Positions 52,109-54,684 of a stretch of 64,000 bases of DNA are shown here, one piece after another; within the stretch, counting starts at the first letter, position 1, and each line of letters begins with the position of its first letter. The DNA comes from Natrinema marinum (lineage in GTDB: Archaea; Halobacteriota; Halobacteria; Halobacteriales; Natrialbaceae), in NCBI RefSeq assembly GCF_024296685.1, contig NZ_CP100763.1:2790001-2854000 (forward strand). Direction: 5' to 3'. Under the pieces are notes generated by a model. That model had not been told where the DNA came from and made no database searches. It saw only the letters and a list, made by a program, of their open reading frames with translations. The position numbers and the translations under genes are program-made.

Positions 52109-52996
52109 TTAGAAAGACTGTATTTCGCGCTCGAGTTCGCGGAGCCGTTCGACGCGGCGTTCGGTGGAGGGGTGCGTCGAGAACAGCCGGCCGACGATGC
52201 CGGACTTGATCGGGATGATGAAGAAGGCGTTCATCTCGGCCTCCTCGCGGAGGTCGTCTTTCGGAACCTTGTCCATCTCGCCCGAGATCTTCAGCAGCGC
52301 CGAGGCGAGCGCGGAGGGGTTCCCGGTGATGGCCGCGGCCCCGCGGTCGGCGGCGAACTCGCGGTACCGCGAGAGCGCGCGGATCAGCAGGTAGCTGATG
52401 ATCCAGACGACCAGCGAGACGAGGATCGCGACGATGATCCCGCCACCGCCGCCTTCACGGCCGCGACCGTGGCCACCGCCGAAGAAAGCCCCCCAGCGGA
52501 CGATCATGAAGGCGATCGTCGAGAGGAACGACGCGATCGTCATCACCATCATGTCGCGGTTTTTGACGTGGGCGAGTTCGTGTGCCAGCACGCCGTCGAG
52601 TTCGTCCTGGTCGAGCGTGTTCATGATCCCGGTCGTCACGCACACCGCGGCGTTGCGTTGGTTGCGTCCGGTCGCAAAGGCGTTTGGCACCTTCGAGTCG
52701 ACGACCGCCACCTTCGGCTTCGGGAGGTCGGCCTGCTGGGAGAGCCGTTCGATCGAGGCGTGAAGCTGCGGGTACTCGTCGGCCGAGACCGTCTTCGCGC
52801 CCATGCTCTTCAGCGTGAGCGTGTCGCTGAAGTAGTACTGCACGAGCGAGAAGCTCGCGAACAGCACCGCGAACAGCCACAGCCCACCGCCGATGTAGAA
52901 GGTGAGCGCGCCGGCGAAGACGATGTACAGCGCGAACAGCAGGAACATCGTCACGAACATCCGCGCGCGCAACCCCCAGTCCGCCTGCCAGTTCAT
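52109..52996 (-). CDS. htpX: Membrane zinc metalloprotease HtpX
   Basis: 295 residues. Two N-terminal helices (about 12-52), the zinc site HELAH at 139-143, two more helices (about 152-172 and 185-210) and the third ligand in REFAADRGAA. A glycine-rich loop (GGGHGRGREGGGGG) divides the second pair of helices. HtpX degrades damaged membrane proteins. Likely co-transcribed with pspAB as an envelope-stress pair. Confidence 0.94.
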   Translation of the reverse strand: MNWQADWGLRARMFVTMFLLFALYIVFAGALTFYIGGGLWLFAVLFASFSLVQYYFSDTLTLKSMGAKTVSADEYPQLHASIERLSQQADLPKPKVAVVDSKVPNAFATGRNQRNAAVCVTTGIMNTLDQDELDGVLAHELAHVKNRDMMVMTIASFLSTIAFMIVRWGAFFGGGHGRGREGGGGGIIVAILVSLVVWIISYLLIRALSRYREFAADRGAAAITGNPSALASALLKISGEMDKVPKDDLREEAEMNAFFIIPIKSGIVGRLFSTHPSTERRVERLRELEREIQSF

Positions 52997-53261
52997 ACGT
53001 GAATCGAGGGGCTCCGACGAAATAAGTGCCCTGCTGAGACGCCCGAACAGGGTTCTAGGGCCGGCGGGCACCGAGGAGAGCCGCCGCCACCGAATAGTTC
53101 GGAGAGTAACCGTTTTCAAACCCAGCCGCGAGTGTCAGCGCACACGGAGCGACAGACGGTGAGCGACGAGAACGGATCGGAGTCGGCACTCGAGGCGACG
53201 GTCGCCGACGCGCTCGAGCGACCGTGATTGGTTTATGGATTGATACGAGTTCGTCGGGTTC

Positions 53262-53286
53262 GGTGAACCCCTTCGTTTCGCATGGA
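53262..53286 (-). promoter_or_regulatory. ORB-like element 1
   Basis: On the minus strand it reads TCCATGCGAAACGAAGGGGT, followed by TC. It shares the GAAACGAAGGGGT core, including the G-string, with archaeal origin recognition boxes bound by Orc1/Cdc6. The second copy lies 99 bases away in the same orientation. Confidence 0.6.
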
Positions 53287-53360
53287 GACCACGGGACACG
53301 GTCACGTCTGACGGGCCGGATTTCGACAGCGTCTGACACGTGTCTGACCGAAAGCGGCTC

Positions 53361-53385
53361 GGCGAACCCCTTCGTTTCGCGTAGA
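53361..53385 (-). promoter_or_regulatory. ORB-like element 2
   Basis: On the minus strand: TCTACGCGAAACGAAGGGGT. It agrees with element 1 at 22 of 25 positions, and again carries the GAAACGAAGGGGT core. Confidence 0.6.
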
Positions 53386-53514
53386 ACGACGTGACCGTCA
53401 CGAGCGGAAACCGACCGCGGCCCACGAGCGGAACGGCGCAAGTCCCGGGAGCGAGGTAGACGGGACGACGGCTGGAGCGGGTCCCTTAACTCCGCGAAGT
53501 CCCAATCGGCGATA

Positions 53515-54684
53515 ATGAGTGAGTCGCGTGCGTTCTGTCCCCGGTGCGGGGACGCGGTGCCCGAGCGGTCGGCGACCGACACTGACGGCGGTCCCGACGG
53601 GACCGCCGCCGAACGTGCCAGCGGGCACGCAAACGACCCGCTGCGACCCGGCGCGGAGGTCGAACTCTGCGATTCGTGTTACTTCGAGGACTTCGACTTC
53701 GTGGACGCGCCGGATCGGATCGACGTCCGCGTCTGTTCGCGCTGCGGTGCGGTCCACCGGGGGAAGCGGTGGGTCGACGTCGGCGCGGAAGACTACACCG
53801 ACATCGCCATCGAGGAGGTCAGCGAGGCGCTTGGCGTCCACGTCGACGTCGAGGACGTCGCCTGGCAGATCGACCCCGAGCAGGTCGACCAGAACACGAT
53901 CCGGATGCACTGTTACTTCACGGGTGTCGTGCGCGGAACGCCTGTCGACGAGCAGGTGACGGTGCCGGTCAAGATCGCCCGGCAGACCTGCACTCGCTGC
54001 GGGCGGATCGCCGGCGACTACTACGCCAGCATCGTCCAGATCCGCGCCGAGGACCGCACCCCGACGACCGAGGAGACCGAGCGCGCCGAGGAGATCGCGA
54101 ACAAGATCGTCGCCGACATGGAAGCCACCGGCGATCGCAACGCCTTCGTCACCGAGACCAGCGAGACCCCCGACGGACTGAACATCAAGGTCTCGACCAA
54201 CAAGATCGGCAAGAAGATCGCGAACAAGATGGTCGAGGAGTTCGGCGGCACCGTCAACGACGCCGAGACCCTCGTCACGGAAGACGAGGACGGCAACGAG
54301 GTCTACCGGGTCACCTTCGCCGTCCGCCTGCCGCCGTACACCCCCGGCGACGTGATCGACCTCGCGGACGACGGCGGCCCGGTCATCGTCCGCAGCGCCC
54401 GCGGCAACCTCAAGGGCGTCCGCGCGACGACCGGCGAGCGATACGAGGCGAGCTACGAGGAGGGGAACTCGCCCGACGCGCGCAGGCTCGGCACACTCGA
54501 GGACGCCGCCGAGGCCACGGTCGTCACCGTCGAGGACGACAACGCAGTGCAGGTGCTCGACCCCGAGACCTACCAAGCCAAAACCGTCGCACGGCCGGAG
54601 TACTTCGATCCGGACGCCGAGACCGTCCCCGTGCTGAAGAGCCGCGCCGGACTGCACGTACTTCCCGACGAGCGCGATGACTGA
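53515..54684 (+). CDS. nmd3: NMD3-like ribosome assembly protein
   Basis: 389 residues. Four CxxC pairs (CPRCG at 8, CDSCY, CSRCG, CTRCG) form the two zinc sites of NMD3, and ...KTVARPEYFDPDAETVPVLK near the end fits the archaeal family. In eukaryotes NMD3 exports the large subunit; in archaea it is thought to act in large-subunit maturation. The end overlaps the next gene by eight bases. Confidence 0.92.
   Translation: MSESRAFCPRCGDAVPERSATDTDGGPDGTAAERASGHANDPLRPGAEVELCDSCYFEDFDFVDAPDRIDVRVCSRCGAVHRGKRWVDVGAEDYTDIAIEEVSEALGVHVDVEDVAWQIDPEQVDQNTIRMHCYFTGVVRGTPVDEQVTVPVKIARQTCTRCGRIAGDYYASIVQIRAEDRTPTTEETERAEEIANKIVADMEATGDRNAFVTETSETPDGLNIKVSTNKIGKKIANKMVEEFGGTVNDAETLVTEDEDGNEVYRVTFAVRLPPYTPGDVIDLADDGGPVIVRSARGNLKGVRATTGERYEASYEEGNSPDARRLGTLEDAAEATVVTVEDDNAVQVLDPETYQAKTVARPEYFDPDAETVPVLKSRAGLHVLPDERDD

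Follow-up and report, generated by a model that had tools for sequence, protein, structure and literature searches.

What are two sequences resembling origin recognition boxes (ORBs) doing in an intergenic gap far from any visible initiator gene? The window, meaning the whole 64-kb stretch of Natrinema marinum DNA analyzed here, includes a gap of about 515 bp between htpX (M48 peptidase, Peptidase_M48; 52109..52999, minus strand) and nmd3 (NMD3 family; 53515..54684, plus strand). An earlier note on this DNA had pointed out two ORB-like elements there and read them as a possible orphan or dormant origin, or as a possible Orc-controlled promoter for nmd3 or htpX.

ORB-type boxes in the htpX-nmd3 gap

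The two elements are exact copies of the 13-mer GAAACGAAGGGGT, both on the minus strand, at 53267-53279 on the htpX side and at 53366-53378 on the nmd3 side, and they form a direct repeat with a spacing of 99 bp, just as the earlier note had described. Its assignment of them to the ORB type also holds, as the boxes fit the oriC1 ORBs of their own genome and are conserved. The htpX-side core, which is conserved in Natrialbaceae, is preceded by an upstream half (TCCATGC, 53280..53286, minus strand) that fits TCCANNN, the corresponding part of the oriC1 boxes, and the resulting TCCANNN-GAAACGAAGGGGT core is common to the oriC1 boxes of the same genome, which belong to the haloarchaeal oriC1 ORBs bound by Orc1/Cdc6-1. 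Measured against CTCCANNNGAAACGAAGGGGT, the 53267 site has no mismatch and the 53366 site, whose upstream half reads TCTACGC, has two. The window has no gene for a Cdc6_C protein, in agreement with the reported lack of a cdc6 gene; the nearest Cdc6_C gene lies 39 kb to the left of the window and orc1 about 102 kb to its right. A small AT-rich patch had been noted as well, and it turns out to be weak: the gap has a GC content of 63%, and its best 50 bp reach 52% AT, a value attained by 2.7% of the window, compared to 70% in the unwinding region of oriC1. A structured RNA at this site was also considered and was dropped after an Rfam search gave no match.

By its sequence, the htpX-nmd3 site is no origin. 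Both boxes lie on the minus strand, so the inverted ORB pair of oriC1 is absent, and the DNA between them has 36% AT and thus lacks an AT-rich unwinding region (70% AT over 50 bp in oriC1). No orc1/cdc6 gene is adjacent or elsewhere in the 64-kb window, oriC1 itself is 112 kb away, and the extended halophile G-string is missing after the window boxes, which have GGGGTTCRCC instead. This last feature separates the two kinds of box in general: of the six bases 3' of the core, at least five are G in every one of the 23 oriC1 boxes checked, and no more than four in any of the 28 off-origin boxes. In Haloarcula hispanica oriC1, mutation of the extended G-string or loss of either box disables or impairs the origin (PMC3936714). 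We therefore consider a dormant or orphan origin that would fire upon loss of oriC1, as the earlier note had suggested, very improbable. The presence of ORBs would fit such an origin, as would a replicating fragment of Natrinema sp. J7 that has no adjacent cdc6 gene (PMC5350488), but the J7 locus, with seven ORBs and 53% GC (PMC5350488), is unlike the htpX-nmd3 site, which has direct boxes and none of the unwinding region, orc gene or extended G-string, the last of these being essential in H. hispanica oriC1 (PMC3936714).

Clustering of off-origin boxes around oriC1

Pattern searches of the whole 3.77-Mb genome yielded six exact copies of GAAACGAAGGGGT and none of a reversed control pattern, which excludes chance occurrence. 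All six copies fall inside 146 kb around oriC1, the main replication origin (2843267-2989156). Two of them, at 2955142 (minus strand) and 2955486 (plus strand), make up the inverted oriC1 pair directly upstream of the Orc1/Cdc6 gene orc1 at about 2955.9-2957.8 kb; the remaining four are off-origin sites, with the two window boxes at -112 kb relative to oriC1 and the others at -32.5 kb and +34 kb. When CTCCANNN was added to the pattern and three mismatches were allowed, 14 of 15 matches were located at 2843-2989 kb and the control again gave none. Under uniform placement, the chance that three independent off-origin loci would all lie within 112 kb of oriC1 is about 2 in 10,000. The genome scan proposed in the earlier note, for which many scattered copies would have counted against its reading, thus returned six copies, all of them near oriC1.

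The same distribution is seen in relatives. Three to seven exact copies per genome were found in a search of 29 genomes of the genus, with none for the control. In the 11 congeners tallied, all of which have a large contig, 32 of the 33 off-origin sites are within 215 kb of oriC1. Nine more Natrialbaceae genomes had a large contig that could be used, and all 27 of their non-oriC sites are within 200 kb. Outside the family, 23 of 27 sites more than 2 kb from oriC1 (11 long contigs) are within 250 kb of it. Such counts are inflated by the conserved order of genes around oriC, and related genomes do not count as independent, so these numbers reflect conservation more than repeated origin.

Binding by another Orc was considered and rejected, given that the origin at 876 kb uses a different motif, TTACAAACGCGAGGGGGG. 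This oriC2-type box is present genome-wide in its own two copies only, with no off-origin copies, and ORB dispersal is therefore specific to the Orc1 type. The 876-kb region (875502-875672), which adjoins a different orc gene and is the second candidate origin, includes a perfect 23-bp inverted repeat, TTACAAACGCGAGGGGGGTGTGT, that has no further copies in the genome. Near the Orc gene at 2750 kb, no ORB pair was obvious.

Some of the other off-origin boxes have conserved settings of their own. Congeners have counterparts of those at 2922863 and 2989144, about 30-50 kb away from oriC1 and with conserved neighbors, namely a pair of oxidoreductase / IMP-cyclohydrolase-like genes and upp/cupin. 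An inverted ORB-like pair, about 64 bp apart, is located at about 2960261-2960337 within the 5' part of the frame of dp1, the gene for the PolD small subunit that adjoins orc1, and other families have similar close inverted pairs at a distance of 3-4 kb from oriC1.

A bipartite element independent of its neighboring genes

Together with an upstream partner motif, the box at 53267 makes up a bipartite element, GTCAGACG-N18-TCCANNN-GAAACGARGGGGT, which in many species is followed by two more phased GTCAGAC copies. In the window, the partner motif R1 (GTCAGACG, 53305..53312) stands exactly 18 bp from TCCATGC, a second repeat R2 (GTCAGACG, 53330..53337) 25 bp from R1, and a third, R3 (GTCAGACA, 53341..53348), 11 bp from R2, all on the minus strand. 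The distance from the start of R1 to the start of the ORB core is 33 bp, or about three helical turns. In 31 Natrialbaceae sites the gap between GTCAGACG and TCCATGC is exactly 18 bp, a count that is not built into the alignment, although the GTCAGACG columns were selected by construction. The offsets of R2 and R3 from R1 are conserved as 25 or 26 and 36 or 37 bp, respectively; since they occur as the pairs 25/36 or 26/37 (about 20 of 30 sites, one mismatch allowed), the R2-R3 spacing is constant at 11 bp, and the window has all three repeats. Genome-wide, the partner half alone (GTCAGACG-N4-CACGTC) has many two-mismatch matches in GC-rich DNA and is uninformative.

Conservation across the aligned sites has sharp edges, dropping to background on either side of about 48 bp, with a mean information of 1.68 bits in the motif and 0.14 downstream. 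Relic ORBs, left without present function by past origin moves or rearrangements, would be compatible with the fact that two congeners have rearrangement breakpoints at the htpX-nmd3 site and next to oriC1, but motif and geometry have been kept while the flanking intergenic sequence diverged, and we regard this explanation as extremely improbable.

No partner motif is present upstream of the 53366 box. This nmd3-side ORB has an upstream inverted repeat of its own in the window (53389-53401, CGTGACCGTCACG), and its counterpart in other Natrialbaceae genera has, by eye, a different flanking inverted repeat similar to TTCAC-N-GTGAAAAC. These repeats hint at a second, different putative partner.

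To follow the locus beyond the genus, 80 loci were collected via Nmd3 and an ORB was scored as at most one mismatch to TCNANNNGAAACGARGGGGT. The htpX-nmd3 interval contains an ORB in 43 of 46 Natrialbaceae loci and in none of the 32 loci from other haloarchaea. The Natrialbaceae loci gave 63 matches in 57.7 kb of interval, all in a single orientation, and none in 356 kb of flanks. In 11 loci htpX alone is close to the box, in four nmd3 alone, and in two neither gene is; the box thus needs no particular neighbor, and no constant tie to the 5' end of one gene was found. Among congeners, for example, it is beside htpX with nmd3 2 kb away in one genome (G017) and beside nmd3 with htpX about 10 kb away in another (G006). 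In two others (G010 and G011), a breakpoint at oriC1 between the right ORB and orc1 has placed the orc1-dp1 segment 160 kb from its oriC1 boxes, and this segment is now 0.3-0.5 kb from the htpX-type bipartite element.

A class-wide search of 292 genomes with GTCAGACG-N14-GGTYTCCANNNGAAACGARGGGGT, allowing three mismatches, matched 71 genomes (control, none). The matches include 49 of 75 sampled Natrialbaceae genomes, among them all 16 sampled congeners with one copy each, and at this threshold the other 26 sampled genomes of the family had no match. A second family, here called f4, contributes 17 genomes (genera g34, g37, g52, and g64) with the same geometry and a TCGA variant, and the few other three-mismatch matches resemble plain ORBs. 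The f4 element is 5-93 kb from oriC1 where both share one contig, and in nine of the 12 f4 loci examined it sits between convergent 3' ends. Its neighbors vary as well: it is found between the ends of upp (UPRTase) and an S9 peptidase gene in g37, in g34 and g64 between a gene of the chlorite-dismutase family and one for an aldo/keto reductase or some other gene, and just downstream of an S9 peptidase in three g52 loci. The upp neighborhood, which also adjoins an off-origin ORB in Natrinema, is thus home to the bipartite element in f4.

An element placed between two gene ends is a promoter for neither gene. Since the element persists without nmd3, htpX or both, a promoter role cannot be general, contrary to the earlier suggestion, and the idea of a general promoter element as its main role was dropped in view of the varying neighbors and the convergent genes in f4. 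An Orc1-controlled promoter of htpX (or nmd3), which would couple a stress protease or a ribosome export factor to replication, could account for the first ORB being 60-150 bp upstream of htpX, in fixed orientation, in most Natrialbaceae. However, the window box is about 270 bp from htpX, at some loci the box is 1-2.7 kb from htpX or accompanies nmd3 only, neither gene, or orc1 instead, and f4 elements are mostly between convergent genes; we find this role quite improbable. A fork-polarity signal was rejected too: 44 of 56 off-origin sites are directed away from oriC1, and the polarity is not fixed, given that the htpX element is flipped in three genomes (G010, G011, and G020) and several f4 elements face oriC1.

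A proposed control site for Orc1

The conserved, gene-independent element near oriC1 is probably a replication control site and not a spare origin. We give about an even chance to a more specific proposal, in which the element would be an origin-proximal, non-origin docking site for Orc1 and a putative partner and would control the availability or activity of Orc1. The proposal is sequence-based: the boxes are identical to those of oriC1 and cluster around it, and the element is conserved, has a fixed geometry, and does not depend on the genes next to it. Orc1 is a relative of S. solfataricus Cdc6-1 and A. pernix ORC1, which are solved as ORB-binding proteins (2qby_A and 2v1u_A), and binding of Orc1 to the boxes is thus expected. 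Orc1 would bind the ORB half, and a putative partner protein would bind GTCAGAC on the same face of the DNA, about three turns away. Because the extended G-string and the unwinding region are missing, the resulting complex would load no helicase. At 5-200 kb from oriC1, the element is copied soon after oriC1 fires, and it would most likely regulate Orc1 once the origin has fired, either through sequestration or through a change in the nucleotide state of Orc1. Other off-origin ORBs, about 33 kb to either side and the pair in dp1, may be part of the same sink. Since one or two boxes would titrate Orc1 only weakly, a change in its state or a dedicated complex seems more likely than pure titration.

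The main rival reading is organization or segregation of the origin region, with Orc1 and its partner marking the region in a parS-like manner for tethering, looping, or partition. Dispersal of the sites within about 200 kb of oriC1, gene independence, and the phased partner array would all suit such a role, and the distribution is like that of bacterial parS, short sites scattered around the origin independently of genes. Nevertheless, each of the boxes is a complete Orc1-type ORB, and in the loci read no partition protein was linked to the element and no ParB-type partner was identified, which makes this reading rather unlikely.

For a control site acting on Orc1, parallels exist in Bacteria, where initiator boxes such as those of datA and DARS occur off-origin at conserved places and datA and DARS also have sites for partner proteins at set positions. 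Two papers treat datA, DARS1, DARS2, and the B. subtilis DnaA-box clusters as off-origin loci (PMC4585315, PMC10950094). The haloarchaeal element shares with them off-origin initiator boxes at a conserved, gene-independent place. It also has a motif at fixed spacing to the ORB, to which a putative partner protein is predicted to bind. It differs in its initiator, Orc1 being unrelated to DnaA, and its effect on initiation is a prediction from sequence. The nearest precedent, alike in having ORBs outside an origin, is H. hispanica oriC2D, an ORB-rich region downstream of cdc6E that has no origin activity and was proposed to titrate the initiator; in that species an off-origin ORB cluster restrains oriC2 (PMC3936714). 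However, the 11 ORBs of oriC2D immediately adjoin cdc6E, and the region acts on oriC2 (PMC3936714), whereas the element described here, made up of one or two Orc1-type ORBs and a GTCAGAC array, has no linkage to orc1 and lies 5-200 kb away from oriC1. A haloarchaeal survey covered only orc-adjacent intergenic regions (PMC3528665), and the open-access literature, to which our search was limited, yielded no closer Orc1-type off-origin element.

We tentatively suggest, with somewhat less confidence than for the docking site itself, that haloarchaea have a dedicated, usually single-copy bipartite locus near oriC1, in which an Orc1 box is combined with a phased GTCAGAC array that has a binding protein of its own. 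After the origin has fired, this locus would sequester Orc1 or reset it, and it would be an equivalent of datA/DARS that arose independently for an Orc1-type initiator. A conserved element with a defined partner motif is a small target (80 bp), and the GTCAGAC array could be used as bait. Such a locus would bear on how archaea restrain re-initiation by Orc1/Cdc6.
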